From an uncultured Flavobacteriales bacterium (GTDB taxonomy: Bacteria > Bacteroidota > Bacteroidia > Flavobacteriales > BACL11), in NCBI GenBank assembly GCA_905478765.1, contig CAJQJY010000003.1, positions 157,008 through 221,007 on the forward strand: DNA of 64,000 nucleotides, read 5' to 3'. Made by a program: the position numbers and the translations under genes. Shown one piece after another: positions 30,248-58,780 of the stretch; position 1 is the first letter of the stretch; every line of letters begins with the position of its first letter. The notes beneath the pieces were generated by a model, which worked only from the letters and a program-made list of their open reading frames with translations, had not been told where the DNA came from and did no database searches.

Positions 30248-31396
30248 TTACTCTACAACTATTTTTTTCTCAGTAGTTCCATCATTAAACTGATAAAATA
30301 AGGTTTGATTGGAGTTAGGAACTACCTCCCTACCTAATATATCAGTAATCTTAATCAGTTTCTTAGTTGCACTATTATCTTCTTCAACAGTAGTTGTTGA
30401 AGCGACAGTTACAATAGAAAAAATTGAATCTAATAAGCACCCATCATTTGTTAAAGCTGATAATGTAATTGTATAATTTCCTGGTGCGGTGTAAGTATGA
30501 ACGGCATTCTCATCAAAGGAGAAATATCCATCCCCAAAATCCCACATTACACTTTCATAGTTAGTTGATAAATTTGTACAACTAATACTATCATTATATT
30601 GGGTAAAGGAAAAATCAGCATGAAAAATATTCCAAGCAGATAAACTATCTAGAACTGTATTAGTAGCAATAGTCTGCAAACTTATTGCTGTAATGCTATC
30701 AATTCCATTTGGCAAGTATGTACTGCTAATACAACTCTTTTTAAATATTGTACTATAAAAAGTACAAGCCGATAAATAACTTCCATAAATACTTGGATGA
30801 CTGTTGTCAGAAGCATATAAATTAAGTGTACTATCCATAGCAATTGATGCTTTCCAAGCCATACCAACTGGAGCGCAACTTGCATTGTTATCAATTGTCA
30901 TTTCCAAATAGCTTTCTTTTAACCTTTGCTGCATTCCACTATAAGTACATATGGGTGGGTAAAACTGACAATTCTGCTGATCCCCATACTTTCTACCCCA
31001 AGTCATAAAAAACAATGGCTCAGTGCACGAGAAATGACTTTCAATTGAATCTACTAAAATTGCTGCATATGGGTAAGTATCATTAGCTACTTGTGATGGA
31101 GGAAAAGATGGCTCTTGACTTTGTGCCTGAAGAACCACATAATCCCATTGTTGTTGATTTATTTTTGAAAGTGTTTGTGCACTAGTAGAATGCACATTAA
31201 AAGTTGCCCCTCCAGGAGTGCTACTATCATATATTAAAGTATCTCCAAATGACAATGCAATTTGTTTTACTAAATCTGGTAAGCTGTTTCCATAAGTATA
31301 AGAATTACCTATAAAAAGAACTTCTTTAGTTTGCTGAGAGAAAGCAGGTGATATACAAAATATACCAGCTATTATTAATGTTAGTATTTTATTCAA
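30248..31396 (-). CDS. Secreted SGNH/GDSL-like hydrolase with PKD domain and short C-terminal tail
   Basis: A 382-residue secreted protein. A signal peptide covers 1-20. An SGNH-type domain follows with VLFIGNSYT (Ser 32) and the paired Asp-His in DNSHPS near 199-204, as in DUF4886-type hydrolases. A PKD domain lies at about 250-325 (WDFGDGYFSFDENAVHTY). The end, LIKITDILGREV then FNDGTTEKKIVVE, is the short tail shared with two other proteins here. The start codon must be TTG at 31396: a stop lies two codons upstream, the next ATG would remove the signal peptide, and the N-terminus resembles that of its upstream neighbour. It overlaps that gene by 8 bases. The substrate is unknown. Confidence 0.82.
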   Translation of the reverse strand: MNKILTLIIAGIFCISPAFSQQTKEVLFIGNSYTYGNSLPDLVKQIALSFGDTLIYDSSTPGGATFNVHSTSAQTLSKINQQQWDYVVLQAQSQEPSFPPSQVANDTYPYAAILVDSIESHFSCTEPLFFMTWGRKYGDQQNCQFYPPICTYSGMQQRLKESYLEMTIDNNASCAPVGMAWKASIAMDSTLNLYASDNSHPSIYGSYLSACTFYSTIFKKSCISSTYLPNGIDSITAISLQTIATNTVLDSLSAWNIFHADFSFTQYNDSISCTNLSTNYESVMWDFGDGYFSFDENAVHTYTAPGNYTITLSALTNDGCLLDSIFSIVTVASTTTVEEDNSATKKLIKITDILGREVVPNSNQTLFYQFNDGTTEKKIVVE

Positions 31397-33380
31397 TATT
31401 TATTTGTTTATGCACAGAGCCATCATCATAAATATAAAATTGTGTTTGATTGGGATTAGGAACTACTTCCCTACCTAATACATCCAATATTTTTACTAAT
31501 TCTTTAGATAATTCTTTTAAATCATCAATACTTGAAACGGTATTTTCACAAGGTACCTCAACCTCAATATCATAATAGAAATAATAGTAACCTGGAGAAC
31601 CTGCACTAGTACCCGTTATACTCATTATTGATCCAATATTATAAGGATAAACAGCTCCAGCATCATTTCTATATAAATCTGAATTTCCATTAGAGATACC
31701 AAGTTGCATATTATTTCCAATAGGGACTTCAAAATTTAAAATAAGTTGCTGCTGCCCTTGAACTAAAGAATGAGTAGTATCATCTAGTACTGCCCCATTT
31801 GATGCCCGTAACTCAAAAGTTACAGTTGTAGGATTATCAGCATAAAATACTGCTGTCTTTATTAATAAATCAGTTGTAGCATCAAAAATTAAATGTTGGT
31901 TTCCATTAAAAAATCCACCTGAAGCAAATGTATTATCAGCCTCTCCTCCGTACTCTAATGAAGTATTTGCATTTGGATTATAATTATTTGCTGATGGATC
32001 CATACATCCTAAAATTGGCGCATTAGGGTCTATATTTAATACTGCGTTTAATATTACAACTTGTCCATTTATTAAAGTTGCTTGCAAAGTATCGTTTATA
32101 AATCCTGGCATTGAAAAAACTACATCAAATATTCCTCCATCAGCATTTCCACATGAATAATTACCACTTAAGTTAGTAGTAGATGAATTTGGTATTATAG
32201 TATTTAAAATAATAATATTTGCACCAATAATAGCTGCTCCTGTACCACCATTAGTTACATTTCCTTCCAAATAGCATGCTTCTGAAAATTCTCTTTCAAA
32301 AACTAAAAGTTTAGCATTTCCATTAGTACTACTATTAATATCGGAAGAAATAATAATACCAGAGGGAAAGTAAGGATATGTACCCCAACAGCCATCAAAA
32401 CCATCACCACTTCCTGAGTAAGAATCGTAATAAGCAACTTGAACCATATTGTTAGGTTGTGAGATGTCATGCACAGTAGTTCCATCTCTATAGTAAGATG
32501 TAATTAAAAAATTACCATCAACATGTGTATTATGAGGTATAGAATTGCTACCTGGATTAGATTGGATCCTGTCTACCTCTTGGATATTATTACAATCCGT
32601 GATATCGTAAGCAGCTAAGTAAGCATCTGAAGTTTCATCAGTAGTAAATACAAAGTCACCATCATCACTAATCCAAGCATTATGAGTAAAATTATTAGGA
32701 GTACTATGTGTTCCTAGGGTGTTAGGATTGTTTTTATCACTTATATCAACAACATATAATTCACCTGCATAAATACATCCTGCATATAAAGTATCACCTC
32801 TTACCATCCCATCATGAATATACTGCTCATTCCATTCTCCTAAATAATGAGGAGCAGTTGCATTTGCTGCAACGTCTAAGAATATAGCACCATCGGGTGG
32901 ACTACTTCCTGTAGCTGATGATGCACCAAATATGTAACAAATTCCATTTTCATCAATATAAAGATTATGTGCTGCTGTAAATTCTACAGAAGCTCCAGTA
33001 TTTGGATTTGTAAAATTACTTACATGCCAATTAGTACTACCAGTCATATCTGTTAAATCTACAATTAATAATCCTGCATCGGCTTCCGTGGTTACATAGG
33101 CATAATTACCCCAAGTCTTTACATCTCTCCAAGTAGAATTAATATCAGCTATTTGAAATTCTAAAATAGGATTAGAAGGATTGCTTACATTAACACAAGC
33201 AAAACCATCATTTAATCCAACTAAAGCATATTCACCACCATCATTAGGTTCAACCCAACCCCATATGTCGTTTCCTTCAGTTGAGTTCCATTCGAATGAA
33301 CCAATTAAGTCCATATTATAATTGTTTTGTGAAAAAGTTAAAAATGGTAATAATAGTAATGTAAAAAGTATTTTATTCAT
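31389..33380 (-). CDS. Secreted choice-of-anchor B family protein with short C-terminal tail
   Basis: A 663-residue modular surface or secreted protein. A signal peptide (1-17) is followed by an LVIVD-type propeller of the choice-of-anchor B family at about 20-365 (STWRDVKTWGNYAYVTTEA, HNAWISDDGDFVFTTDE). Next come a CarboxypepD_reg-like domain near 368-450, a GCMDPSANNYNPNA motif near 455, a beta-rich module at about 477-610 also present in the 1627-residue protein, and the short tail LVKILDVLGREV with YDDGSVHK. Function is probably adhesion or surface binding; no catalytic motif is evident. A -7 element precedes it, and the SGNH gene is coupled to it by an 8-base overlap. Confidence 0.83.
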   Translation of the reverse strand: MNKILFTLLLLPFLTFSQNNYNMDLIGSFEWNSTEGNDIWGWVEPNDGGEYALVGLNDGFACVNVSNPSNPILEFQIADINSTWRDVKTWGNYAYVTTEADAGLLIVDLTDMTGSTNWHVSNFTNPNTGASVEFTAAHNLYIDENGICYIFGASSATGSSPPDGAIFLDVAANATAPHYLGEWNEQYIHDGMVRGDTLYAGCIYAGELYVVDISDKNNPNTLGTHSTPNNFTHNAWISDDGDFVFTTDETSDAYLAAYDITDCNNIQEVDRIQSNPGSNSIPHNTHVDGNFLITSYYRDGTTVHDISQPNNMVQVAYYDSYSGSGDGFDGCWGTYPYFPSGIIISSDINSSTNGNAKLLVFEREFSEACYLEGNVTNGGTGAAIIGANIIILNTIIPNSSTTNLSGNYSCGNADGGIFDVVFSMPGFINDTLQATLINGQVVILNAVLNIDPNAPILGCMDPSANNYNPNANTSLEYGGEADNTFASGGFFNGNQHLIFDATTDLLIKTAVFYADNPTTVTFELRASNGAVLDDTTHSLVQGQQQLILNFEVPIGNNMQLGISNGNSDLYRNDAGAVYPYNIGSIMSITGTSAGSPGYYYFYYDIEVEVPCENTVSSIDDLKELSKELVKILDVLGREVVPNPNQTQFYIYDDGSVHKQINIE

Positions 33381-33396
33381 GTTGTTTTATTTTTTG

Positions 33397-33404
33397 CAAA
33401 TTTA
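33397..33404 (-). promoter_or_regulatory. -7 element of the choice-of-anchor B / SGNH operon
   Basis: TAAATTTG on the minus strand, 16 bases before the ATG at 33380. Confidence 0.6.
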
Positions 33405-33458
33405 ATAAAAATTCATACTAAATTGTTATCAGGAATTTTGCTATCTTATGTCTTTAGT

Positions 33459-36128
33459 TTATAATTCTAGAGTAATTTGTCCGCCACCATACTCATCATC
33501 TTCAGGTTTCACCTCTTTTGATGATTCTTTAACTTCAGGCTCATTAGTAATCTCTAACTCAATTTCAGTTTTTACTTCAATTGGTTTTTCCGCTACCTCA
33601 ATAATTTCCTCAATTATCTCTAATTCTTGCTCTATTATTTCTTTATAAGGTAAAGAGTCAATCAAGTTGATTTCTTTTACTTTTTTAGATGTTAGTTTAT
33701 TCCCTAGCGCCTTCTCTCCTTTTACAGAAATAAACTCTTCAATGTTAATGATTTGAGTTTGCCTGTCTTTTCCTTTTTCTTTTACAAATACTATCTCTAC
33801 TTGAGGTCTCCAATCAGTACTTACAACTTCTAATTGACTATTTTCATTATCGGTAATAAAACTAAAACGAGACATAGTATTCTCTACTAAAAATCGTTTC
33901 ACATAGTAAGCCTGTTTGTTGCCATCAAAATAAACTGCAGAAATAGGCTTATTAGGATTGTTCTGCTCAATTAAAATCATATCCTCATCAAAATGATTAG
34001 AGATATCAAATGATTTTAATTCAATTTCACCAGATTGCTGAATCGTTAAAATTTTATCCTCAGCTTTAAAAGCACCAAGTAATTCTCCTCTTTCATCAAC
34101 ATTTAACCTCTGTACTGTATCATCAAACCAAATTTTACGAGCCGATAAAGTTGAAATTCCTGCTGATTTTAACTCCACTTTTCTTACTGCTTTTTTAGTA
34201 ACAATATTTCCACCAGAACCTTTTCCTTTTATTGCAAGTTCAGCAAAATCAACATCAATTTTAAGCGTTTTAAGTTTTGCTAATTTTTTCAAATGCACAG
34301 TTACTGTTTCTGCCTCACCATTTGGGTTAGCAGTAAAATATAGTACTTTACTTCCTTTTTCTGATTTTGTTAATCCGTAATCTCTACCCCTAGTAATTGA
34401 CTTAACAGGGAAGCGTTTCATCATAGAAGTACCAGACTTCCCATCCTTATAAATCATATTATAAATAGTTCGCTCATCTTTCTTTTTAAAGACCGCACAA
34501 TGAATTATTTCTTTACCAACAAAGACCTTGCTACCCACTTTTACAACTTGCATACTACCATCTTTTTTAAAAACAATAATATCATCAATATCTGAGCAAT
34601 CACAAACATATTCATCCTTTCGCATAGATGTACCAATAAAACCTTCTTCTTTATTTATATAAAGTTTTTTATTAGCCACAACTACTTTAGTTGCATCTAT
34701 ACTTTCAAAAGTTTTAATTTCAGTTTTACGCTCCTTCCCTTTTCCGTATTTCGTTTTTAAGTTTTTGAAATAATCAATAGCGTAATCAGTCAGATTGGCT
34801 AAATAACCTTTTATCTCTTCAATTTTTGCTTCAAGTTTTAAGAGTTCTTCATTTGCTTTATTCAAGTCAAACTTAGTTATTTTCTTAATCTTAATTTCGG
34901 TTAATCTTTCAACATCCTCATCCGTAACATCTCTTAATAAATTCTTAGCATGAGGTTTTAATTCTTTATGAATAGTCGCAATAATCTCTTTCCAATTATC
35001 AAGCTCTTCAATTTTATGGTAAATCCTATTTTCAATAAATATCCTTTCCAATGATGCGAAATGCCATTTTTCTTGAAGTTCAGAAAGGTTAACTTCTAAT
35101 TCTTGTTTTAATAAATTTAGCGTATGTTCAGTTGATTGTTTTAATATCTCAGAAACTCCAAGGAATTTTGGCCTATCATCTTCAATAATACATGATAAAG
35201 GAGAAATAGAAACTTCACAATCAGTAAACCTATATAAAGCATCTATAGTTTTATCAGGAGAAATTCCTGCTGGAATTGTAATTGAAATTTCAACATGTTC
35301 TGCCGTATTATCCTCTACCTTTTTAACCTTAATTTTTCCTTTATCATTAGCTCTAAGGATAGAATTAATTAAAGATGTAGTAGTTGTAGAAAAAGGCAAT
35401 TCTGAAACAATAAGTGTATGCTTATCTTCTTGATGAATTTTAGCTCTTACCCTTATTTTACCTCCTCTTAGTCCATCATTATAATTACTAAAATCAGCAC
35501 TTCCTCCACTATAAAAATCAGGATAAATTTTTGGCTTAACTCCTTTCAATACTTTTATAGATGCATCAATAAGTTCATTGAAGTTATGAGGTAATATTTT
35601 TGTTGATAGTCCAACTGCAATACCTTCAACTCCATGTACTAATAATAAAGGAAACTTTACTGGCAATGTTACTGGCTCTCTACCCCTACCATCATAAGAA
35701 GCTGACCAGTTTGTAATCTTCTTATTATAAACAACATCTAGTGCAAAGGGAGTTAATCTCACCTCAATATACCTTGAAGCAGCTGCTCTATCACCAGTCG
35801 CAACATTACCCCAGTTTCCCTGCATATCAAGCAATAAATCCTTTTGTCCAACTTGCACCATAGCATCACCAATTGATGCATCACCATGAGGATGATATTT
35901 CATAGTATGTCCAATAACATTAGCTACTTTATGATACCTCCCATCATCTAGCTCCTTTAATGAATGAAGTATCCTTCTTTGTACAGGTTTTAATCCGTCA
36001 TTAATATGAGGGACAGCACGCTCCAAAATAACATAAGAAGAATAATCCAAAAACCAGTTTTGATACATGCCTGAAACATGTATAACTGACTCTTGATTAT
36101 TTTTGTTTTGTTCCAAATCTTCCTCCAT
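33459..36128 (-). CDS. parC: DNA topoisomerase IV subunit A
   Basis: DNA-cleaving subunit of the type IIA enzyme that unlinks replicated chromosomes. It has the winged-helix start DGLKPVQRRILHSL, HPHGDASIGDAM, and the catalytic Tyr120 in RAAASRYIE. A long coiled-coil-like stretch lies near 420-450. The C-terminal region is basic and then turns acidic (EIIEEIIEVAEKPIE, EITNEPEV). I see no GyrA box, which together with the ParE-type partner supports ParC over GyrA. Length is 889. It directly abuts the PH-domain gene (no spacer), as the last gene of parE-PH-parC. Confidence 0.92.
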   Translation of the reverse strand: MEEDLEQNKNNQESVIHVSGMYQNWFLDYSSYVILERAVPHINDGLKPVQRRILHSLKELDDGRYHKVANVIGHTMKYHPHGDASIGDAMVQVGQKDLLLDMQGNWGNVATGDRAAASRYIEVRLTPFALDVVYNKKITNWSASYDGRGREPVTLPVKFPLLLVHGVEGIAVGLSTKILPHNFNELIDASIKVLKGVKPKIYPDFYSGGSADFSNYNDGLRGGKIRVRAKIHQEDKHTLIVSELPFSTTTTSLINSILRANDKGKIKVKKVEDNTAEHVEISITIPAGISPDKTIDALYRFTDCEVSISPLSCIIEDDRPKFLGVSEILKQSTEHTLNLLKQELEVNLSELQEKWHFASLERIFIENRIYHKIEELDNWKEIIATIHKELKPHAKNLLRDVTDEDVERLTEIKIKKITKFDLNKANEELLKLEAKIEEIKGYLANLTDYAIDYFKNLKTKYGKGKERKTEIKTFESIDATKVVVANKKLYINKEEGFIGTSMRKDEYVCDCSDIDDIIVFKKDGSMQVVKVGSKVFVGKEIIHCAVFKKKDERTIYNMIYKDGKSGTSMMKRFPVKSITRGRDYGLTKSEKGSKVLYFTANPNGEAETVTVHLKKLAKLKTLKIDVDFAELAIKGKGSGGNIVTKKAVRKVELKSAGISTLSARKIWFDDTVQRLNVDERGELLGAFKAEDKILTIQQSGEIELKSFDISNHFDEDMILIEQNNPNKPISAVYFDGNKQAYYVKRFLVENTMSRFSFITDNENSQLEVVSTDWRPQVEIVFVKEKGKDRQTQIINIEEFISVKGEKALGNKLTSKKVKEINLIDSLPYKEIIEQELEIIEEIIEVAEKPIEVKTEIELEITNEPEVKESSKEVKPEDDEYGGGQITLEL

Positions 36129-36626
36129 CTAATTGTTTTTTACAATTATTCTATCAAAAAATTTACTAATTCTCTCAATTTCATTTTCTGACATAAAAGT
36201 AATATTAAATCGTTTTGCCACTTTCTTACCACTCTGTGTTTCTATCTTCAACATTAATGTTTTATTGAAACTAAAAGGCCTGTTAAAAAAAGAATAATCT
36301 CTTAACATAGCGTGAGGAATATCAACATAATCCTTTGTCTTAAAAAAATCCAGCAACACTCTGTGTGAGGTAATCTGTATAACATAAGGATCAAGATTTA
36401 CTGTATATTTAAAAATTCCAACAATTAAAAAGTATATGATGACAACAGTACTAACTATACTGTAAATAATATTCTCAGCAAAAAAAATACTAAGACCAGA
36501 AAATGGTAAATAAATAATAAACCATTCTGGAATTATTATTGTTGTAACAAACAATATAAACAAACCTCCAACTAAGAATGTTATTTTTGTTTTATTATTA
36601 CATTTTAAATTTATATTATGCATCAA
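36129..36626 (-). CDS. Bacterial PH-domain-like membrane protein
   Basis: A 165-residue protein with two hydrophobic segments (about 13-35 and 48-70) followed by a soluble beta-rich domain with a C-terminal helix, the organisation of small bacterial PH-domain (YdbS/DUF304-like) proteins. Family identity is suggested by [16 protein letters not shown] and the final [15 protein letters not shown] helix. It overlaps parE by 11 bases and abuts parC, so it is translated with both topoisomerase IV subunits. No functional link between membrane PH proteins and topoisomerase is established. Confidence 0.65.
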
Positions 36627-38463
36627 TTATATCCTCTTCTACCCTCAAATTATTAATAATGAAATCTTGTCTTTCTTTTGTGTTCTTGCCCATATAATAC
36701 TTTAATAAATCTTGTATTTTATCTTCTTTAGCTAAAATTACAGGGTCTAATCTCATCTCAGGACCAATAAAGTGTTTAAACTCATTAGGAGAAATCTCTC
36801 CTAAACCTTTAAATCGTGTAATCTCTGCTGATTTTCCTATGACTTCTAATGCACTTATTCTTTCTTCCTCAGAATAACAATAGATTGTTTTCTTTTTATT
36901 TCTAACTCTAAATAGTGGTGTTTCTAAAATATAAACATGACCTTCCTTTACTAGTTCAGGGAAAAATTGCAAAAAGAAAGTCAATAACAATAATCTAATA
37001 TGCATACCATCAACGTCAGCATCTGTAGCAATAACAATTTTATTGTAACGCAAATCATCAATCCCAGTTTCAATATTTAAGGCTGCTTGCAATAAATTAA
37101 ATTCCTCATTCTCATACACTACCTTTTTAGTTAATCCATAAGAATTTAATGGTTTACCCCTAAGACTAAAAACAGCTTGCGTTTTAATATCCCTAGTTTT
37201 AGTAATTGATCCAGATGCAGAATCTCCCTCGGTAATAAAAATAGTAGAATCTACTCTAGTATCTTTCTTTTGATCATTATAATGTACTCTACAATCTCTT
37301 AACTTCTTATTATGAAGATTGGCTTTCTTAGCTCTTTCTCTAGCTAATTTTTTAACTCCAGCCATGGCTTTACGCTCATGTTCAGCCATTTTTATTTTTC
37401 CTTCAATAGTATCAGCAGTACTAGAGTTTTTATGCAAATAATTATCTAAATGTTTCTTTAAGAAATCTTGAATAAAAGTCAAGACAGTAACTCCATCAGG
37501 TTCAATTTCGGTTGAACCTAATTTAGTTTTGGTTTGCGACTCAAATATGGGCTCAATAACTTTAATACTTACAGCAGCATTTATTGCTTGCCTAATATCA
37601 GTAGAATCATAATTTTTACCAAAAAACTCTCTTATTGTTTTTACTAATCCTTGCCTAAAAGCACCTTGATGCGTACCACCCTGTACAGTATGTTGCCCAT
37701 TAACAAAAGAATAATACTGCTCAGAATATTGGTTTTTACAATGAGTTATTGCTACCTCAATATCATCTGCTTTAAGATGAATAATTGGGTATAACATTTC
37801 AGCATCAGTTCTTTGTTCTAATAGATCAAAAAGTCCGTTTTCAGAGTAGAATTTTTCACCATTGAAAATTATTGTTAATCCTGGATTAAGGTAACAATAA
37901 TTCCACATCATTTTCTCTACATATTCATTAATGAATCTGTATTTTCCAAATAGTTCTTCATCAGCAATAAAGGAAACTTTAGTTCCTCTCCTACTTGTGT
38001 TTTCTTGTATACTTTCCTCATTAGTAATTACACCTTGTGAGAATTCTACTAATTTACTTTTACCCTCACGAATAGATCTGATTTTGAAGTAAGATGACAA
38101 TGCATTTGCCGCTTTTGTTCCAACTCCATTAAGTCCTACTGATTTTTTAAAAACCTTGGAATCGTATTTTGCTCCTGTATTAATTTTAGATACACAATCA
38201 ACAACTTTTCCAAGTGGAATACCCCTTCCAAAATCACGAACAGTGACTTTATTATTACGAACAGTAACTTCAATAGTCTTTCCATTTCCCATCACATACT
38301 CATCAATTGAATTGTCAAGCACTTCTTTTAAAAGAATATAAACGCCATCATCAGGAGATGATCCATTACCCATTTTCCCAATGTACATTCCAGGTCGTAA
38401 TCTGATATGTTCTTTCCAATCTAACGATCGGATACTATCTTCATTATAGTTAGCTTCAGCCAT
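36616..38463 (-). CDS. parE: DNA topoisomerase IV subunit B
   Basis: ATPase and Toprim subunit of topoisomerase IV. The GHKL ATPase shows [22 protein letters not shown] and [14 protein letters not shown]; the Toprim domain shows EGDSASG and [10 protein letters not shown]. Length 615 fits ParE, shorter than the usual GyrB of about 645 or more. It is the first gene of a parE, PH-domain, parC operon and has its own -7 element. Confidence 0.93.
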
Positions 38464-38500
38464 TATTTTCCTAATTTACTTCCTTCATTTTGATAGAATG

Positions 38501-38508
38501 CAAATATA
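38501..38508 (-). promoter_or_regulatory. -7 element of parE
   Basis: TATATTTG on the minus strand, 37 bases before the parE ATG. Confidence 0.55.
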
Positions 38509-38606
38509 AAATACTCTTTATTTTATTTTAAGAAACTAGAAACGCGTTATTAACAGGCTTTTCAACTTCTTATAAGCTTATAATTTTTTAGTTTTTAGAT
38601 TTTGTC

Positions 38607-39704
38607 TTAAACATTAAAACGAAAATGCATAATATCACCATCTTTAACTACATAATCTTTACCCTCAACTGATAGTTTTCCATTATCCTTACAAGCTTGC
38701 TCAGAACCTAAATTTACATAATCATTGTAGGCCATAACTTCAGCTCGAATAAATCCTTTTTCAAAATCAGTATGAATAACAGCTGCAGCTTGTGGTGCTT
38801 TTGTACCTTCAGTAATTGTCCAAGCTCTTACCTCTTTTACTCCAGCAGTAAAATAAGTTTGTAAATTTAATAACTTATAAGTTGATTGTATTAAATAATG
38901 AACTCCAGGTTTTTCTAAACCTAATTCCTCAAGAAACATTTCTTGTTCTTCAATCTCTTCTAATTCTGCAATTTCTGCTTCAATTGCAGTTGCAATAAGT
39001 AATACCTCAGCATCTTCACCTTTTACAGCTTCTTTTACTGCCATTACATGTTTATTTCCTTCTTTTACTGATGCCTCATCAACATTACACATATACAAAA
39101 CTGGCTTAGCAGTTATTAAATGCAAATCATTTATAACTTCTAGTTCATCATCAGTGGCATCTATACTTCTTGCTGAATTTCCAGCCTCCAAATGAGCAAT
39201 ATATTTATCGCAAATAGCTAGTATTTTTTGTCCAGCTTTATCACCTGACTTAGCAGTACGAGCATTCTTTTCTCGCAATTTTTCTAAAGTTTCTAAATCC
39301 TTTAATTGCAACTCCATATCAATTGTCTCTTTATCCCTTACTGGATCAACCGAACCATCTACATGAATAATATTGTCATCATCAAAACACCTTAACACAT
39401 GAATAATAGCGTTTGTTTCACGAATATTTCCTAAAAACTTATTTCCAAGACCCTCTCCATTACTTGCCCCTTTGACTAAACCTGCAATATCAACTATCTC
39501 TACAGTAGTTGGCATTACTCTTTCAGGATTTACAATTTTTGACAATGCCTCTAATCTATCATCAGGCACTGAAATAATACCAACATTAGGTTCAATTGTA
39601 CAAAAAGGGAAATTAGCTGATTGTGCCTTAGCTTTTGATAAACAGTTAAAAAGAGTTGACTTACCTACATTTGGTAATCCTACAATTCCACATTTTAATG
39701 CCAT
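38607..39704 (-). CDS. ychF: Redox-regulated ATPase YchF
   Basis: Universally conserved Obg-family P-loop NTPase that prefers ATP and associates with ribosomes. P-loop GLPNVGKST is at 8-16, DIAGLVKGASNGEGLGN at 71-87, and the TGS domain lies at the C-terminus (LQTYFTAGVKEVRAWTI and ending MHFRFNV). The G4 motif is CNVDE rather than NKxD, consistent with ATP preference. Length 365 is standard. It is monocistronic with a -7 element 22 bases before the ATG. Confidence 0.97.
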   Translation of the reverse strand: MALKCGIVGLPNVGKSTLFNCLSKAKAQSANFPFCTIEPNVGIISVPDDRLEALSKIVNPERVMPTTVEIVDIAGLVKGASNGEGLGNKFLGNIRETNAIIHVLRCFDDDNIIHVDGSVDPVRDKETIDMELQLKDLETLEKLREKNARTAKSGDKAGQKILAICDKYIAHLEAGNSARSIDATDDELEVINDLHLITAKPVLYMCNVDEASVKEGNKHVMAVKEAVKGEDAEVLLIATAIEAEIAELEEIEEQEMFLEELGLEKPGVHYLIQSTYKLLNLQTYFTAGVKEVRAWTITEGTKAPQAAAVIHTDFEKGFIRAEVMAYNDYVNLGSEQACKDNGKLSVEGKDYVVKDGDIMHFRFNV

Positions 39705-39726
39705 AATTCTATTATTTAAAGGTCGG

Positions 39727-39734
39727 CAAAGATA
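39727..39734 (-). promoter_or_regulatory. -7 element of ychF
   Basis: TATCTTTG on the minus strand, 22 bases before the ychF ATG. Confidence 0.5.
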
Positions 39735-39859
39735 TCATTTTAGATAATAGATAATATACATTATATATAAGATTCTATACATATTATTTTTGTCAACAAT
39801 CCGTTAATAAGTACACATATATAAAAGTAATAAATTTATCAATCAGAAATGGCTATTCT

Positions 39860-39867
39860 TAAATTTG
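39860..39867 (+). promoter_or_regulatory. -7 element of the transketolase operon
   Basis: TAAATTTG, 25 bases before the ATG at 39893. Confidence 0.55.
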
Positions 39868-39892
39868 CGGTTAAATCAATCAAGCTATAAAA

Positions 39893-42101: not shown

Positions 42102-42103
42102 AA

Positions 42104-43039: not shown

Positions 43040-43040
43040 A

Positions 43041-44222: not shown

Positions 44223-44223
44223 A

Positions 44224-44247
44224 AAAAGGAACCAATTGGTTCCTTTT
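44224..44247. terminator. Bidirectional terminator (24-base perfect palindrome)
   Basis: AAAAGGAACC, then AATT, then GGTTCCTTTT, self-complementary along its full length. It lies between the convergent aminotransferase and outer-membrane-protein genes. Confidence 0.85.
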
Positions 44248-44267
44248 AATAATTTTTCTTCTTTTGT

Positions 44268-46823: not shown

Positions 46824-46836
46824 ATAGAAAAAAGTT

Positions 46837-48680: not shown

Positions 48681-48723
48681 GGAACAAATATATACAGAAA
48701 AGCCATTTATTATAACTAATATG

Positions 48724-48731
48724 TAATTTTG
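48724..48731 (+). promoter_or_regulatory. -7 element of the FAD-dependent protein gene
   Basis: TAATTTTG ends 2 bases before the first ATG (48734) and 5 before the second (48737). The transcript should begin near 48735, which favours the second ATG. Confidence 0.6.
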
Positions 48732-48736
48732 TCATG

Positions 48737-50278: not shown

Positions 50279-50402
50279 ATTAATGATGATAAATGTACTT
50301 AAGTACGTAGAATCGATTAAAAAACGTTAATTATTAGCGTAATAATAATGTTGAAGCTTTTATTTACAATTTTCAAAAAACAATAGACATAGTTTACATA
50401 TT

Positions 50403-51080
50403 TTAATTAGAAATGATAAACTTATTAATTAGATAAACATGCCCAGCAACTATTAAGTTAATTATAATTACGTAGAACGGCCACTCCCCTATTAAAAAAA
50501 TATGATTTACAATTGGTTTTTTCATTAAAAACATGTAATTCGCTCCTGTACAAGAATTGAAAATTAATAAAAATAAAATAGGAATCTGAATTCTTAGTAA
50601 AGATTTCCACCAAGAATTAAATCGGCACCGCATATTATGTATAATATGCAGATATAATGGTATAAAGACTATACCTGCATGCAAAAAGTAGAATTCAAAA
50701 TAGAACCATGGTGAATTACCAATTGTTAAAACTGGAGTTATAATAGCATACCCTCCTGCTAGAGACGCAATAAATACCATCCATTCAAACATCCATTTTT
50801 TTTTATTTATTAAAACAATTATTCCAATGATTAAGGAAATATAACAAATTTGAAAAGGTAAATTTTCTAATAAATTCCAAGTATTATTTTTAATTGTAAT
50901 TACATTAGTAATTACATACATTAAAGAAAATAATAATGCAAATATATAAGAAGAGTAAGATTTCACTTGATTACTCTTGCCATTTAAAGACACTAAAATA
51001 ACAGTAATAGTAATTACTGAAAAAAGTAATCCAATCCACCAAACTGTTGTAAATATTTCAATAGGTATATCTTTTGTCAA
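50403..51080 (-). CDS. YwaF/TMEM164-family (TIGR02206) integral membrane protein
   Basis: A 225-residue membrane protein with seven hydrophobic segments. The pattern LPFQICYISLIIGIIVL, then MVFIASLAGGYAIITPVL and the His in FYFLHAGIVFIPLYLH match the YwaF family of unknown function. Here the gene is one base downstream of the 1627-residue secreted protein gene, probably the end of that operon. The neighbourhood suggests nothing definite about its role. Confidence 0.78.
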   Translation of the reverse strand: MTKDIPIEIFTTVWWIGLLFSVITITVILVSLNGKSNQVKSYSSYIFALLFSLMYVITNVITIKNNTWNLLENLPFQICYISLIIGIIVLINKKKWMFEWMVFIASLAGGYAIITPVLTIGNSPWFYFEFYFLHAGIVFIPLYLHIIHNMRCRFNSWWKSLLRIQIPILFLLIFNSCTGANYMFLMKKPIVNHIFLIGEWPFYVIIINLIVAGHVYLINKFIISN

Positions 51081-51081
51081 T

Positions 51082-54000
51082 TTATCTTAGAATCAACTTA
51101 TGATTAATAATACTCTTTTCTGATTGTAGTTCAACAAAATATATTCCTTTAGCAAAAGAAGATATATCGATTTTCAATGTAGTTTTACTATTAGTTTTTA
51201 TTATTATCTTTTCATCTACAATATCACCAAGCACATTGTATAATTTCATATTTATATTTTCAGAAATATTTGACAATTCGATGTTTACAATTCCTGTTGT
51301 AGGATTAGGATAGATATTAAAACTATTAGCAAACAAATTATCTATTTGAGAATGAATTACAGTGTAAAAAACAGTATCACTTTCACAATCATTATCGTCA
51401 GTTGCAATCATCCAGTAATCTCCAGCTCCACTAATTTGAATAGAAGAGGTAGTTTCTCCAGTATTCCACATGTAAGAAGTTGGATTTCCTAAAAGAGTAT
51501 TTGATTGTAATACATTATTGTTTGAACTGATTGCAACGTCAAGATACAATAAACTAACTTCTGTTGAAACGATACTGTCACAACTATTAGTAGAACTTAA
51601 AGTATCTATAAAATTTCCTGATGAATTATAAGTATTCCCTCCAACTGAAATTGACTCCCCATCACATAAACTAACATAATTGTAATAAAAAGTTGGAGGT
51701 AATACAGTAAGTAAGGTATTTATTACACTATCGCATCCAAGTGAAGTTTGCAATACATCAAAATAGGAACCAGGAGTATAATAAGTGTTTGAACCTATAT
51801 CATAAAATTCACCTTCGCAAATAGTTTGATTATTAGTATTCGTTAAAGGATTTGAAATAATTAAATCAGTAATTATAATACTATCACAACCAGTCAAACC
51901 TATAGTATCAATATATATGCCTGTAGAAGTGTAATAATTACTCCCAACTTGAATTCCTTGTCCACTGCAAATATTAAAATTTTGAAAATACTGTATTCCT
52001 GCTCCAACATTTAAATTAGTAGTTTGTATACTATCACATCCATTAGATGTAATAAATGAATCAACATAAGTTCCTTGATTAGTATAAGTATTATTTCCAA
52101 TAATAATACTATCACCATTACAGATCGAAATATTTTGTGTTAAATTTGAAGCATTATTAATTATTGCTTTAACTTCAGACACACTAGAATAACAAGATTT
52201 TCTTTTAACTTCTAAATCATAAAAAAAGTAATAATACCCATATGGATCAGTACTTGCACTAGATTGCGTGATAGATAATAAATTGTTAAAATTATATGGA
52301 TAATTTGCTCCACTATTATTTCTATACAAACCACTGTTTTGAAGTGCACCAGCAGCAACACCTAGCTGCATATCATTTCCAATTGGAACGTCAAAATTTA
52401 GGATTACTTGTTGTTGTCCAGCAATAATATTTAATGTTGTATCATCAATAACTAAACCATTACTATTTCTTAATTCAAAAATAATAGTGTTGGAGGACTC
52501 AGCATAAATAATAGCTGACTTAATTTCACATTCTTTAGAAGCATTAAATACTAGATGCTGATCATTATTAAAATAACTTCCACTTCCAATTAAATTGTTT
52601 ATTGCACCACCATTTATAGAATTAAATTGATATTCTGATTGCACATAATAGGATGTTGTAGTATTAATGACAGGAGTTGTAAAATAATTACCAGTATCTA
52701 ATATATTTTGTAAACTTAGATCATCATACCATTGTACAATTCCAGAATTTGAATTAACAAACAAATCAAAGCTTGAAGCCCCACATGATGTGTCATTAAC
52801 AGTTTCCAAAGACAAGTCAAGTATAGTAATTGCATTATTTATAACCAAACTATCTGAACCATATGCATTAGTAACTTTTAATTTTACAGTATATGTTCCT
52901 GGATTAGAATATGTATGTATAGGGCTTTGACTAACAGAAGTATAACCATCACCGAAATCCCAAAGCCAAGATACAGGCCCATTGCTAGATAGGTCAGTAA
53001 ATGATATAGTAGAATTACAACTCAAACTATCACTAAAATTAAAAGCACTAACAGGAGGAGAATTTGGAAATGCACAACTCCAATCAACTGCAAAACCGGC
53101 TTCCTCTAAACCCCCATCTGTATCTAATAAAACGGTAACTGAACCACCACTCGAAATTATAACACCTGGACTACCTGTTAACACATTACAGTATTGACCT
53201 AATGAAGGTGCTGTTGCATCTGGACCATCAAATATTTCAAGATAATCATAATCACATGTTGAAGAACCATTACTTGGTTCTTCAACATCAAAAAATGAAA
53301 AATTTAAAGTTATTTGGTTACTTCCTGGAGGTGAAATAGTCATTGAAGAACTACTTGATGGATAATAAGCACCACTTGGTCCTCCAACGTCATATAATGT
53401 TCCATTACACATGTTAAGTGTTCCATTACCTGAATTTGGCAACGTAATAATACAAGGGTTACTAGCATCAATGCTAATAATATGTTGCTTAATTATACTA
53501 TCAGTACCTAATGGTCCATATGCAATTAATGATACTGTAAAGGTTCCATAATTAGTGTAAGTATGTGTAGGGTTAGCCAATATACTTGTATTGCCATCTC
53601 CAAAGTCCCAGTAATATGAATTTGAGTAATATGAATTATTTATAAAACTTACGTTTGCTGGTAAAAAACAAAAAATTGAATCAGTATAAGAAAAGTCTGC
53701 ACTCGGAGGGGATGTGATATCAAGACCGATACTCCATAAACCTCTGCCATAAGTTGCTGCAAATAATGTATTAGACTGATGTTGCATTTCAAGTTCATTA
53801 ACTATTACATTAGGAAGTGAATTTTGGTTAAAAGGATTCCAATTACTAATTGTTGAGTCAATAGTCCAAACACCCAAATCTGTTCCAATATAAACTGACT
53901 CAACCGTACTACCTTTATCTATTTCAATACAATTTACAGGAACATTTGGCAGTGAATAAGATATATTATTCCAACTATTACCTCCATCTAAACTTTTATA

Positions 54001-55965
54001 CACTTTTTCCCCAGATGTATATCCAGAAAGCGTTACCCAAACTATATCTTCATCATTTGGATTTACAAGTATATATGTAATTGTTTTATTTGGCAAACCA
54101 TTATTATCAATTTGACTCCAACTCCCCCCTCCATTAATGGTCCTAAACATATCTGAACCATCACTAATATAAATTCTATCAGCATCCGATTTTGAGATAC
54201 CTATCTCATCAATTCTGTTACCATTAGTTTGGTTATTAGTTATTTGATTCCATGAATTTCCTCCGTCAGTACTTTTAACTAACTCATCATAGCCAATATA
54301 AATAATATTTGGATTATTTTTATCTAACTCATATGGTGTTTCCCAGGCACCATTACCTGTACTAATAGTAGAAAAACCATTACCACCGTTAGTAGATTTC
54401 CTAATATCACCATAATAAAGTGCACCATACATTATATTAGAGTTTGTATAATCAATAATACATTCCATGCCATCACCACCAATTACAGCGTCCCAAGTTG
54501 TATTCGTTTTTAAAAATGTACCATTATCTTGTGATCCTGTAATTACCTTATCTTGAACAGTTTGTGACACTCCTAAACTATAAAACTGAGTAATATGGAG
54601 GCCATCAGATATATCAGTCCAATTAATACCATTATTAACTGAAAAATAAAGTCCTCCGTCATTACCAGAATAAATATAGTTGTTTAAGGGATTATATTTT
54701 AACATATGCTCATCAGCATGCATGTAAGTTGTACCACTAGCACCATACCAATGTGTATTAATATTCCAACTTTGTCCACCATCAGTAGATTTCCAGCAAT
54801 TCACACCTCCAACAAAAATAATATCTTCATCAATAGGGGATACTGCAAAGGCTAGATCATACCACGCTTGCCCTCCATTATCTGATCCATCAAAATCCCA
54901 ACCTAGTAAATTTGGACTATTAGATTGTAGTGTCCATGTCTGACCTTCATTAGTAGATTTATAAACTCCATAGAATCCATTATCATTACCTCCAAACATT
55001 GCATAAACAACCTGAGGATTATCTATTGTAACTGCAACACAGGCCCTTACAACATCACCAGTAGATGGTAAACCAGAACCTGACTGACTCCAATTAACTC
55101 CATTATCAATAGATTTATATATCGACGTATTTCCGTTTGAAGCACCATAAATAATACTAGTATTTGTAGTGTGAAATTCAATATCAGTCATATTAATACC
55201 AGAATACGTATGAATAAATGAGTTACCAGCATCAATTGATCTATAAATACCATTACTAGTAGCTACAATTATTATATCAGTATTTGCTGGGTTTATTAAC
55301 ACTCTATTTCCTTTATACTGATTTACTACATCAAATGATAAACCAGTAGAATTAAATGTATTTCCACCATCTAAAGACTTCATTAGACCATAAGAATAAG
55401 TATCTCCACCATCCCTATCTCCTGTTATAATATAAATTTGATCTGGATTGTTTGGGTTAATAGCTATATCAGAAACGCCTAAATTCGTTAAAAAATCTGT
55501 GCTTGTTTGCCAATTTAAACCTCCATCAACTGACTTCCATAACCCACCTGCAGGTGCTCCAATGTACAATGTGTTAGCGTCCGTTGGATGAAACGCCACC
55601 GTGTTAACTCTTCCAATACCTCTCTTGTTACCATTTGACTGTAGAGGGACGTCATTAGGGCCTACTTGTGTCCAGTTACTGTTTGGTAACATATTTGAAT
55701 TATTATAATCTTCTAGCTTATTGTATTCTTCTAATAAAACCTTAGGACGAAGGATTCCATCTGGATATACGCGTGGAGCAATAAAATTCTCCCATCTTTT
55801 AAACTGCTTCCAACCCTTTCCTTTTTCAATAGTTTTATTCTCCCAAAATTCTTCAAATTCTTGTTGAGTTTCATAAAAATTCTCATTTGAATCTTGCATT
55901 TTATCTATCCAACTCTGTGAATAAACAAGAGATGGTATAAGTAGTAAAAGAAGTAACTTTTTCAT
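51082..55965 (-). CDS. Giant secreted sortilin/PKD/CUB protein with T9SS type A tail
   Basis: A 1627-residue surface or secreted protein. A signal peptide covers 1-16. A BNR/sortilin-type propeller region fills about 95-750, with many Asp-box-like elements (STDGGQSWN, SLDGGNSWN). PKD domain 1 is near 755-833 (WDFGDGNTS), CUB near 842-958 (CDYDYLEIFDGPDA), PKD 2 near 968-1052 (WDFGDGYTS), and the beta-rich module shared with the 31.4-33.4 kb gene at about 1118-1262. Four roughly 45-residue tandem repeats follow (1272-1478), then a classical type A tail (INIYPNPTTG-like NIYPNPTTG, KLYNVLG, FAKGIYFVEL) at 1547-1627. It would be secreted through T9SS. The gene is 10 bases downstream of the M36-like peptidase gene. 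Confidence 0.87.
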   Translation of the reverse strand: MKKLLLLLLIPSLVYSQSWIDKMQDSNENFYETQQEFEEFWENKTIEKGKGWKQFKRWENFIAPRVYPDGILRPKVLLEEYNKLEDYNNSNMLPNSNWTQVGPNDVPLQSNGNKRGIGRVNTVAFHPTDANTLYIGAPAGGLWKSVDGGLNWQTSTDFLTNLGVSDIAINPNNPDQIYIITGDRDGGDTYSYGLMKSLDGGNTFNSTGLSFDVVNQYKGNRVLINPANTDIIIVATSNGIYRSIDAGNSFIHTYSGINMTDIEFHTTNTSIIYGASNGNTSIYKSIDNGVNWSQSGSGLPSTGDVVRACVAVTIDNPQVVYAMFGGNDNGFYGVYKSTNEGQTWTLQSNSPNLLGWDFDGSDNGGQAWYDLAFAVSPIDEDIIFVGGVNCWKSTDGGQSWNINTHWYGASGTTYMHADEHMLKYNPLNNYIYSGNDGGLYFSVNNGINWTDISDGLHITQFYSLGVSQTVQDKVITGSQDNGTFLKTNTTWDAVIGGDGMECIIDYTNSNIMYGALYYGDIRKSTNGGNGFSTISTGNGAWETPYELDKNNPNIIYIGYDELVKSTDGGNSWNQITNNQTNGNRIDEIGISKSDADRIYISDGSDMFRTINGGGSWSQIDNNGLPNKTITYILVNPNDEDIVWVTLSGYTSGEKVYKSLDGGNSWNNISYSLPNVPVNCIEIDKGSTVESVYIGTDLGVWTIDSTISNWNPFNQNSLPNVIVNELEMQHQSNTLFAATYGRGLWSIGLDITSPPSADFSYTDSIFCFLPANVSFINNSYYSNSYYWDFGDGNTSILANPTHTYTNYGTFTVSLIAYGPLGTDSIIKQHIISIDASNPCIITLPNSGNGTLNMCNGTLYDVGGPSGAYYPSSSSSMTISPPGSNQITLNFSFFDVEEPSNGSSTCDYDYLEIFDGPDATAPSLGQYCNVLTGSPGVIISSGGSVTVLLDTDGGLEEAGFAVDWSCAFPNSPPVSAFNFSDSLSCNSTISFTDLSSNGPVSWLWDFGDGYTSVSQSPIHTYSNPGTYTVKLKVTNAYGSDSLVINNAITILDLSLETVNDTSCGASSFDLFVNSNSGIVQWYDDLSLQNILDTGNYFTTPVINTTTSYYVQSEYQFNSINGGAINNLIGSGSYFNNDQHLVFNASKECEIKSAIIYAESSNTIIFELRNSNGLVIDDTTLNIIAGQQQVILNFDVPIGNDMQLGVAAGALQNSGLYRNNSGANYPYNFNNLLSITQSSASTDPYGYYYFFYDLEVKRKSCYSSVSEVKAIINNASNLTQNISICNGDSIIIGNNTYTNQGTYVDSFITSNGCDSIQTTNLNVGAGIQYFQNFNICSGQGIQVGSNYYTSTGIYIDTIGLTGCDSIIITDLIISNPLTNTNNQTICEGEFYDIGSNTYYTPGSYFDVLQTSLGCDSVINTLLTVLPPTFYYNYVSLCDGESISVGGNTYNSSGNFIDTLSSTNSCDSIVSTEVSLLYLDVAISSNNNVLQSNTLLGNPTSYMWNTGETTSSIQISGAGDYWMIATDDNDCESDTVFYTVIHSQIDNLFANSFNIYPNPTTGIVNIELSNISENINMKLYNVLGDIVDEKIIIKTNSKTTLKIDISSFAKGIYFVELQSEKSIINHKLILR
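51530..52150 (-). repeat. Four tandem about 45-residue repeats inside the giant secreted protein
   Basis: On the minus strand four units share the pattern C-x-G-x-S/x...G-x-N/x-x-Y...G-x-Y/F-x-D...GCDSI...T-x-L/V. Examples are SICNGDSIIIGNNTYTNQG, NICSGQGIQVGSNYYTSTG, TICEGEFYDIGSNTYYTPG and SLCDGESISVGGNTYNSSG. The first Cys and the Cys of CDS recur in every unit and may pair. Sequence divergence between units is large, so they are old. Confidence 0.8.
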
Positions 55966-55975
55966 TTCCTAGGAT

Positions 55976-58780
55976 TTATTTAGTAGCAACTATTTTTTTT
56001 ATCGTACCATCACTATAAATATAAAGCAATGTAGTTTTATCTACAACCTCATCAACATTAACCAATCTACCCAACAAATCAGTTATTTTTACTAACTCAG
56101 GTTCTATTGCATTTGCATTATTAATTGATGTTGTGCTAGTAGAAACTTCATAAAGCATTAAATCATCAACTGCTGCTTCAACCAAGCTTCCCCCATCTAA
56201 ATTTTGGCCCAAACGCAAACTATCTGAAGCAATAAACTTAAGTTGGATATTATTTGTTAAATTTACATAATCAGTTATACGAAAAACAAATTTTCTCCAG
56301 CTAATATCCGAACTTTGATTGTTTTCAACATAATGCCAATTTACTCCATCATCTGTAATAAGTACTTGCCACCAATCTGCTCCAGGATTAGCACCACTTG
56401 CTGGGCTATTTGTGTACCATCTGTAATAAGAAAAAGCAGGGTTAGTATATGAAGTTAAATCATAATAAGGCGATAGCAAAGTTGTATGCCCACCATCAAC
56501 ATCATTTGTTCCTAGCCCATCATTAATTGAAGCAGCATTTCCAGTAAAAGCACATTGAACCCCCCCTATTGTGTGCTGAGCATCAGTCTGGCAAATTGTT
56601 GAAGGATCTGTTGGATCTGCAAACGAACCTATTGGCGAACCTATCTCCCAAACTCCAGTAGTTGCATTATCATTAGTTGCACCGGTTTGCCAAAAACCAA
56701 AATTAAAGTCAAAATCTTCTTCTTCAGACAGTTCATATCCTACTAATATAAAGTAAGGTAAATTTGCGTTATTAATTGGTGTTAAATTTGAAGCAACTGG
56801 TGTAACTCCTGACTCATTTCCATAATTATCAGTTAATGAAATGTAGTAAGCAATTACAGTCCCATTTGGCTGTGCTGGAATAGTTGTTGTAAATGAAGAT
56901 GTACCGCTCATTGACATATTAGTCCATGAAATAGCATCATTTAATTTGTAATAACAATTAGCAGAACCAAGAGCCCATGGATAAGTAAGCCCTATACTTG
57001 CATTTATAACAACTCCAGAATTTCCATTTGCGACACTTACAGGATTATGAGCTATCACAGCATTAGATAATAATGTGATTCCATGTAATGCGAATGCACT
57101 TATAATTTCAGTATCATTTGGTGTTCCATTTGTTAAATTAGCATCATTATCATCTGCATAAAGAACTTCAAGTAACAGGTCTGTATAAATAGAACCCTCG
57201 TCACCATCTGGACCATCAACCCCGCTATCATATGTATACTTAAATAAATCAAGCATTTGGGTCATATCAGCAAGATTAAGGTATAAATCCCAGAATGCAC
57301 CAGCAATAATTTCTCCATCAGCATGAACTTCACCAACTAAATCCTGTGGATAAACTTTTCTATCTTGATCATATCTTCTAACAGAAATATTGGGATCAAC
57401 TAAGTCCCATCCATAGCCAAGAACTGGAGATACTGTTAATGATAGTGCCCATACATCAGCAAATCCTTCATTTAAACCACCGTTTTGCATGCCACCACCC
57501 CAGCCATTTCCGTTATAATGATCAGCATTTATCGCATGTCCATATTCATGATAAACAACATCAGGAATTTTAGCTGTTGCGTGACACCCACCGCCTTCAG
57601 CATAGAAATTAATTGAATTGCCATCAAAATAAGCATTACAACTTCCAGCTTCATCGATATTAGTTTCCATAGGCTCGTTTAGTATTCCATTAATAGGGTA
57701 GCTTGGAAATACGTCTAAGAAATGATCATGAATATTATTAACAGCTTGATATGCAGTTCTTTCTTGAATTGTAGAGTTAGAATTATCAAAAACTATACTA
57801 TTGTTAGCTGTTAAGGGTTCAAAAATATCAGGTGTAGATCCACTAGTTTCAACATCAGCATAACGTCCTTCAAGCTTATATTGTACTTGGGTTCCAATAT
57901 TCATAGGCAGCACTACATCACCATTATCATCAGTGTAGTAATTTATATTAGTGCTTTGGTCTGTAGCTTTTAAATATTTAAAATTCTGAATAACTGTAGG
58001 ATTATTGGGATTAATTGGATAAACTTCTCCAGAAACTGTAGCTGTACCTGTTGGGAGAACTTCATACATTACTTTATTTTTACGCATCAAAAGATCTCCA
58101 TTATTTGCGTCAACATAACAAATATAATTTGCTGGCCCTGCTCCTATTATTGTAGAAAAAGAAATTTCATAAACTAAATGATATTGATATTTTCTGTACT
58201 TGGGATTTGCTAAAACTTTTAAATCATCATTAACAATAATATTAGAAATAGTATTTGAGATATTAGAAGTAGCACTAGCAATAGCACTTTGCAAATTTAA
58301 TGTAGGTGAAGTACTAATACTTATATCGTTGAACACATCCAATCCAAAAGCAAGCAATTCATTATTAAGACTAAATTTAGCATACAGCTTACTACCAATA
58401 ACTTCTAAATTATTATAATATTGAACATATGTATTATTTATATACTTATCATTCTTAACAGATGAGAATTCTCTTAAATCACTTGGTAATACAAAATCTT
58501 GCAAGGCTAGAAAGGACTTTATATCATTTACAGGAATTGGAGTTCCAAAAGCTCTATGAGGCATTTGATTTCGTTCATTAAAGATAACAAACCAGTTAGG
58601 GTTATTGTAAATAAAATTTTGCCACAATTGAGCACTCCTTAATTGCTCCTGATATTGTTTATTAAGTTCAGATTTAACTTTAAAATATCTTACTTCATAT
58701 TCATCTGTATGATTATGTTTTGTTGCAAATAGTCCAATAGATATTATTGAAAATAACATTAGTGAAATTACTGTCTTCAT
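55976..58780 (-). CDS. Secreted M36-like (fungalysin-type) metallopeptidase with short C-terminal tail
   Basis: A 934-residue secreted zinc protease. Signal peptide 1-19; an N-terminal FTP/PepSY-like propeptide to about 230 (YHLVYEISFSTI, YICYVDANNGDLLMRKN). The catalytic centre has HEYGH near 411 and NEGFADVW near 438, with downstream GEIIAGAFWDLYL. The region from about 570 is beta-rich, with a possible carbohydrate- or protein-binding domain near 690-880. The end, LVKITDLLGRLV and YIYSDGTIKK, resembles the short tails of the two 30-33 kb proteins, not the type A tail. Fungalysin-type enzymes are processed on export. It heads the cluster with the giant protein and YwaF. Confidence 0.85.
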   Translation of the reverse strand: MKTVISLMLFSIISIGLFATKHNHTDEYEVRYFKVKSELNKQYQEQLRSAQLWQNFIYNNPNWFVIFNERNQMPHRAFGTPIPVNDIKSFLALQDFVLPSDLREFSSVKNDKYINNTYVQYYNNLEVIGSKLYAKFSLNNELLAFGLDVFNDISISTSPTLNLQSAIASATSNISNTISNIIVNDDLKVLANPKYRKYQYHLVYEISFSTIIGAGPANYICYVDANNGDLLMRKNKVMYEVLPTGTATVSGEVYPINPNNPTVIQNFKYLKATDQSTNINYYTDDNGDVVLPMNIGTQVQYKLEGRYADVETSGSTPDIFEPLTANNSIVFDNSNSTIQERTAYQAVNNIHDHFLDVFPSYPINGILNEPMETNIDEAGSCNAYFDGNSINFYAEGGGCHATAKIPDVVYHEYGHAINADHYNGNGWGGGMQNGGLNEGFADVWALSLTVSPVLGYGWDLVDPNISVRRYDQDRKVYPQDLVGEVHADGEIIAGAFWDLYLNLADMTQMLDLFKYTYDSGVDGPDGDEGSIYTDLLLEVLYADDNDANLTNGTPNDTEIISAFALHGITLLSNAVIAHNPVSVANGNSGVVINASIGLTYPWALGSANCYYKLNDAISWTNMSMSGTSSFTTTIPAQPNGTVIAYYISLTDNYGNESGVTPVASNLTPINNANLPYFILVGYELSEEEDFDFNFGFWQTGATNDNATTGVWEIGSPIGSFADPTDPSTICQTDAQHTIGGVQCAFTGNAASINDGLGTNDVDGGHTTLLSPYYDLTSYTNPAFSYYRWYTNSPASGANPGADWWQVLITDDGVNWHYVENNQSSDISWRKFVFRITDYVNLTNNIQLKFIASDSLRLGQNLDGGSLVEAAVDDLMLYEVSTSTTSINNANAIEPELVKITDLLGRLVNVDEVVDKTTLLYIYSDGTIKKIVATK

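Follow-up and report, generated by a model that had tools for sequence, protein, structure and literature searches.

The locus and its C-terminal tails

A window of 64,000 nucleotides (the whole stretch of DNA analyzed here) from contig CAJQJY010000003.1 of an uncultured Flavobacteriales bacterium of the BACL11 lineage encodes three proteins, designated as P0001–P0003, that end in a common short C-terminal tail, while two other genes of the window end in the type A sorting domain of the type IX secretion system (T9SS). In this study, we characterized the short tail and its relation to type A. The features of the locus are as follows.

30248..31396, minus strand: P0001, 382 residues, TTG start; signal-peptide-like N-terminus, DUF4886-like body, PKD domain, short tail
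30251..30370, minus strand: short tail of P0001, residues 343–382
31389..33380, minus strand: P0002, 663 residues; choice-of-anchor B family body (LVIVD repeats), carboxypeptidase-regulatory-like domain, short tail
31392..31511, minus strand: short tail of P0002, residues 624–663
51082..55965, minus strand: P0004, 1627 residues; sortilin-like, PKD and CUB domains, ordinary type A tail; contrast case
51091..51315, minus strand: type A sorting domain of P0004, residues 1551–1625; PF18962 55.7 bits (cut-off 27)
55976..58780, minus strand: P0003, 934 residues; metallopeptidase-like body (HEYGH), short tail
55979..56107, minus strand: short tail of P0003, residues 892–934
63803..64000, minus strand: partial gene with type A tail, cut by the window edge; PF18962 38.7 bits (cut-off 27)

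The tails of P0001, P0002 and P0003 have 40, 40 and 43 residues, with 15 invariant columns in the three-row alignment. A preliminary description of this DNA had noticed the tail but had put its length at 36–40 residues, whereas it is actually 40–43; its assignment of P0004 and the partial gene to type A agrees with the PF18962 scores. Counted from a site-like step further upstream (T↓T-V, S↓S-I and T↓S-I, respectively, with the arrow marking the step), the tails start at 30391 (47 residues), 31532 and 56128. P0001 overlaps the end of P0002 by 8 bases, and 10 bases separate P0003 from P0004, which lies downstream of it; genes for short-tailed and type A proteins are thus direct neighbours. As for the bodies, P0001 scored 51.2 bits with PF16227 and 45.4 bits with PF18911, and P0002 scored 196.4 bits with TIGR04312 (cut-off 100) and also matched PF08309 and PF13620; the Peptidase_M4 score of P0003 (16.8 bits) lies under the cut-off of 22.4.

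Distribution of the short tail

The three-row profile found 27 short tails in the 1.6-Mb genome of the organism (expectation (E) values 2.9e-27 to 9.5e-5), so the likeness of the three tails is not due to chance. All 27 end 0–4 residues before the stop codon, and their bodies are of many kinds. The same genome contains 42 type A tails over the PF18962 cut-off (among them one interrupted by two in-frame stops and some truncated where a contig ends), and no short tail coincides with any of them; the prediction that both tail types occur in one cell was thus borne out. When one contig-cut short-tail frame and three cut or broken type A frames were dropped, the median protein lengths were 406.5 residues for short-tailed (n = 26) and 598 for type A proteins (n = 39), with no significant difference (p = 0.084). 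Some short-tail genes of the own genome (G000) are clustered: three (L007, L021 and L024) lie on the 5.9-kb contig C20, and L009 and L016 are about 1 kb apart on contig C18.

Other genomes were searched with the 27-row tail alignment. All 52 genomes of the organism's own family (0.8–2.1 Mb) carry the tail, in 3–51 copies each. Across 394 genomes sampled evenly from the order, 86 matched at E ≤ 1e-6, namely 41 of the own family and 9, 8, 6 and 22 of four further Flavobacteriales families (f60, f68, f62 and f61, respectively), with one or two copies in each f61 genome. An even sample of the phylum gave five matches among 394 genomes at E ≤ 0.001: the own genome, G064, and three marginal hits (E = 4e-4 to 7e-4). 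Since 19 candidates were scored per genome, the order and phylum samples show presence, not copy number. The 5.2-Mb genome G064, from another family of the class, has one strong short tail, on a 423-residue glycosidase-like protein (L059), and this lone tail is possibly the result of horizontal transfer. Named records with the tail are mostly metagenome-assembled genomes of marine Flavobacteriales, BACL11 included (453 places confirmed, 79 loci kept). Tails are also found in records titled Chryseobacterium gleum, Polaribacter and Saprospiraceae (L107, L109, L116, L130, L135, L163, L171 and L151), although these titles may be wrong.

Position of the tail and exchange with type A domains

Cutting the frames with a stop codon from the fetched loci, which are the best search matches rather than a random draw, gave 208 distinct short tails. 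The distance from tail to stop was 0 residues in 150 of them, 1 in 18, 2 in 30, 3 in 8 and 4 in 2, and none of the 208 lay mid-protein. By an ad hoc rule made for this analysis, 148 of the 172 short-tail frames with a visible start (35/35 of the viral ones) begin like a signal peptide, compared with 47 of 186 control frames. The tail is therefore, as had been proposed, a C-terminal element of proteins with signal peptides that is distinct from the catalogued type A domain. Mid-protein or cytoplasmic use was considered and rejected: the only mid-protein profile hits, L060 and L062 (E = 5e-4), correspond to motif B within intact type A domains from other Bacteroidota, which rather supports kinship with type A.

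A search of 5.8 billion proteins with one tail gave 307 matches among 324 candidates. Of these, 120 matches were listed; all 120 carry the tail, which ends at the last residue in 117, one residue off in two and five residues off in one. The bodies of the listed proteins include leucine-rich repeat, M14, M43-like, arylsulfotransferase, plastocyanin, redoxin/thioredoxin, PKD and SprB repeat types, among others. None of the 120 bears a PF18962 mark, and a type A profile made for this analysis matches two of them, at the motif B part of the short tail itself.

The short and type A tails swap on homologous bodies. When tails were removed, 30 of the 208 short-tailed bodies aligned to a type A body (54 compared) over at least 80 residues, and in each case the alignment reached to 30 residues or fewer from both tails. 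The clearest examples are L011 (short) and L033 (type A), both metalloprotease-like and both from this organism, which align over almost their whole length (32% over 356 residues), and the pair L088 and L056 (45% over 488 residues). No viral bodies are among the 30 cases. For P0002 itself no swap was found among its close relatives, all 121 of which are short-tailed and none type A; the tail is near the end in 119 of them, while P0011 and P0046 have longer extensions (8 and 26 residues from the end, respectively). Among 30 choice-of-anchor B loci elsewhere in the phylum, four have a type A tail, none has a short tail, and the rest have neither. A homologous module common to P0002 and P0004 stands just before or near their respective short and type A tails, so modules are shuffled as well as tails.

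Relationship to the type A domain

In profile comparison by hhalign, the short tail aligns to type A in the motif B part only, with a score of 19.7, whereas the maximum in 300 column shuffles was 15.1 (0/300 reached it). The first half of the tail scores 4.56 compared with −2.14 for shuffled type A tails, while the second half scores no better than shuffled, and its homology to type A is not supported. Of the type A motifs D/E, the tail retains a basic residue close to its C-terminus (K35, nearly invariant). None of the 27 aligned tails has PNP or GxY, with LFYIYDDG in place of the latter, and the residue before D of DxLGR is T or V in 126 of 153 tails. The curated type A models placed 0 of 70 tails over the cut-off: the best scores, by one tail each, were 15.4 bits for TIGR04183 (cut-off 23) and 13.5 for PF18962 (cut-off 27). 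Likewise, the type B and type C NCBIfam models matched neither the three window proteins nor the 70 tails, and none of these tails was over a cut-off of any NCBIfam or Pfam family. The short tail is no member of TIGR04183 by that family's own criteria.

An AlphaFold2 model of the tail (45 residues, 70-row alignment) is a three-stranded sheet with strands at residues 10–14, 27–33 and 38–43 (predicted local distance difference test (pLDDT) 81.8; predicted template modelling score 0.55). The model of the type A domain of P0004 has seven strands (pLDDT 95.2). The best VIA-align row for the tail model was the Porphyromonas gingivalis HBP35 chain, residues 279–323, and a search of solved structures by sequence gave nothing at E < 0.9. 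Taken together, the motif B match, the predicted three-stranded fold, and the cleavage-like site at a fixed distance described below suggest that the tail is likely a halved type A domain. This is close to the preliminary description, which likened the tail to a compressed type A domain that has neither the NxxPNP strand nor the GxY step.

A cleavage-like site upstream of the tail

A [TSNDEP]↓[GAST]-[IV] step, with I/V 14–17 residues before the D of DxLGR, is present in 102 of 153 cellular tails; the count in 1000 shuffles had a mean of 12.7 and a maximum of 23, although the sequences are related and the shuffles therefore overstate the independence of the counts. From the 208 tails, 13 without the DxLGR pattern and three that were too short were left out of the site count. 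In the 102 tails with a site, the length from the step has a median of 47 residues and a range of 37–52. P0001–P0003 have the step 15 residues before D. The step was found in none of 39 viral tails (shuffled mean 1.9), and the same loose step is not enriched before type A tails (28/51 vs. 22.9). An [ST]-[IV]-x-[EDN] linker is enriched in both, with 22 of 51 type A tails (vs. 9.3) and 89 of 208 short tails (vs. 27.3). In Prevotella intermedia, PT↓GI is preferred for cleavage and Ile is the most conserved residue (PMC11969387). The step thus resembles a PorU cleavage site, and actual cutting at this position is predicted from the sequence pattern.

T9SS machinery and the proposed role of the tail

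The genome of the organism encodes SprA and three proteins that score over the cut-off for the PorV family. Among the genomes sampled from the order, SprA was matched in 77 of the 86 tail-bearing genomes and in 238 of the 308 others (odds ratio 2.5, p = 0.014). Of the nine tail-bearing genomes with no SprA match, eight are below 90% complete, and PorV-family proteins scored over the cut-off in all nine, so that no tail-bearing genome of this sample was without both components. This co-occurrence is consistent with a role in T9SS but is not decisive, because most of the order has T9SS. Among the PorV-family genes of the own genome, L230 (contig C19) and L232 (contig C11) have neighbours that presumably correspond to those of PorV and PorQ, while L231 (contig C1) follows the gene of a 1420-residue protein with a weak type A-like end.

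We consider it highly probable that the tail is a half-size T9SS sorting domain, i.e., a short C-terminal domain (CTD), which as a three-stranded remnant of type A would send Sec-exported proteins to the T9SS translocon of these Flavobacteriales. In the proposed pathway, the Sec system would export the short-tailed protein, and its tail would fold as a single sheet whose three predicted strands correspond to strands 3, 6 and 7 in the type A sandwich. The tail would be bound by the SprA translocon and, probably, by the PorV shuttle, and PorU would cut some 47 residues before the C-terminus, at the T/S↓G/A/S-I/V step. The protein would then be released or joined to a surface glycan, so that T9SS would place its cargo on the cell surface or outside the cell. 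That short-tailed proteins depend on T9SS, bind PorV and are cut by PorU is thus predicted.

Alternatively, a dedicated receptor distinct from PorV, perhaps an outer-membrane protein specific to the lineage, may recognise the tail, which would then represent a functionally separate class of sorting or anchoring signal. The tail lies outside Pfam and NCBIfam, has no GxY and has a second half unlike that of type A, and one of the three PorV-family proteins could serve it. However, the motif B match, the body swap with type A and the PorU-like step favour the type A route, and two of the three PorV-family genes stand beside what we take to be PorV and PorQ neighbours, so that an additional shuttle is not clearly evident; we therefore regard this explanation as unlikely. 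Known systems offer examples for both sides: type B tails of Flavobacterium johnsoniae use their own SprF-like shuttles (PMC12618676), whereas short and long CTDs have been modelled on the same PorV sites (PMC11969387). We find it very improbable that the tail is unrelated to sorting and serves beta-rich secreted proteins as a folding or assembly cap (e.g., a strand donor or dimerisation hairpin). Its shortness, its beta-rich character and its prediction, at moderate confidence, as an independently folding unit would fit such a cap, but it occurs on many unrelated bodies and replaces type A tails at the same place. The least credible explanation, that the tails are functionless, decaying type A remnants, would suit the small genomes of the lineage (0.8–2.1 Mb in the family) and the loss of half of the domain but not the strong conservation of hundreds of copies on unrelated bodies, the fixed site distance, or the phage copies with a signature of their own.

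Copies of the tail in phages

In IMG/VR, 43 viral contigs encode a tail-bearing protein (66 pattern matches, 43 confirmed; L185–L227). The tail stands at the protein end in 43/43, and the proteins are signal-peptide-like. LGRP is present in 36 of 39 distinct viral tails compared with 0 of 162 cellular ones, indicating that the viral tails form a line of their own. The terminase family phrog_6681 was found in 30 of the 40 contigs tested; phrog_2, which we take to be a terminase as well, matched none of the 40 and was uninformative. One phage contig (G749) encodes a terminase, a portal protein, virion proteins and GroEL; this chaperonin (L235:133-1725, phrog_5725, E = 2.6e-135) is close to the terminase and portal genes. 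Terminase matches with in-frame stops were seen in G788 (three TAG), G775 (one TAG and one TAA) and G786 (one TAA), which may reflect stop recoding, introns or assembly errors.

Two of the viral tail proteins were scanned; they contain Cys-containing GCxDxxAxNYxxxANxxDGSC repeats, match no PHROG or Pfam family, and are encoded among small phage genes, in L203 close to an M15 endolysin gene (phrog_894). None of 50,697 phage records holds a tail-bearing relative of the viral protein; a single record matched, in the repeats alone and with no tail in the 8.1 kb examined, and the tail by itself gave five matches at chance level.

Judging from the tail, the hosts of these phages would be these Flavobacteriales. 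We tentatively suggest, as a possibility well short of the confidence placed in the cellular tail, that marine phages encode T9SS cargo of their own: a large Sec-exported Cys-repeat protein with the host's half-size tail and without the PorU step, shown uncut on the surface of the infected cell. The host machine would export the phage protein, which would stay uncut because the phage copies keep the tail without the step at that place. No report of phages using T9SS was found in a full-text search of openly licensed PubMed Central (PMC) papers.

Comparison with known sorting domains and implications

The preliminary description was partly supported. Its reading of the tail as a compressed type A domain stood, whereas the cleavage-like site and the phage copies had escaped it, and its suggestion that the tail could be a separate kind of signal did not hold: a short CTD of the same architecture has already been described in P. 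intermedia (PMC11969387). There, the short CTDs have 43–55 residues and three strands equal to strands 3, 6 and 7, cleavage sites were shown for five of them, both kinds of cargo are glycosylated, and AlphaFold models on PorV were made. P. intermedia was described there as the only species in the phylum reported with both CTD lengths.

The tail characterized here resembles these CTDs in its half length (43–55 residues from the cleavage site there; median 47, range 37–52 here), motif B, putative D/E region, basic residue near the end, single predicted three-stranded sheet, T↓[GS]-I type step, strictly C-terminal position and N-terminal signal peptide, and in the presence of long and short tails in one genome. 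Unlike in P. intermedia, where the short CTDs conserve GxY/GxN and the Tyr of motif B and were mostly found by type A profiles, the present tail has LFYIYDDG and mostly T or V at the Tyr position and is missed by type A profiles; moreover, it belongs to Flavobacteriales, is a family-wide trait and has phage copies.

With type A (TIGR04183, PF18962), the tail shares the C-terminal position on signal-peptide proteins, motif B, the basic residue near the C-terminus and an [ST]-[IV]-x-[ED]-like linker. It differs in having about 40–47 rather than 70–80 residues, three predicted strands rather than seven, neither NxxPNP nor GxY, and scores below the curated cut-offs. Type A CTDs have an almost invariant, functionally important Lys close to their C-terminus (PMC10994853), and a basic residue is kept at this position in the short tail. 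Type B (TIGR04131) and type C are, like the tail, C-terminal signals for T9SS substrates but are both longer, with 150–235 residues (PMC12618676) and the C-terminal 100 residues of ChiA (PMC10202324), respectively. The tail is thus best classed as a known kind of element, a short CTD, in another lineage; what is new is its own signature, its being unrecognised by Pfam and NCBIfam, and its carriage by phages. The tail strings were absent from the full text of the openly licensed PMC papers searched.

If this reading is true, about 40% of this organism's tailed cargo (27/69 tails), and hundreds of proteins in related marine lineages, escape secretome surveys based on TIGR04183 and PF18962. The minimal T9SS signal is an open question raised by truncation data, and the last 22 residues of HBP35 suffice for the secretion of GFP, according to a review (PMC10202324). 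As a natural minimal signal present throughout a family, the tail would separate what T9SS needs (the motif B loop and the last two strands) from the other four strands, which would be dispensable. The viral copies would suggest phages that use T9SS, and a displayed phage protein might block further phages or alter cell sticking and grazing. In that case, a whole marine lineage would have a second sorting code in the half-size tail, and its phages would have copied it.

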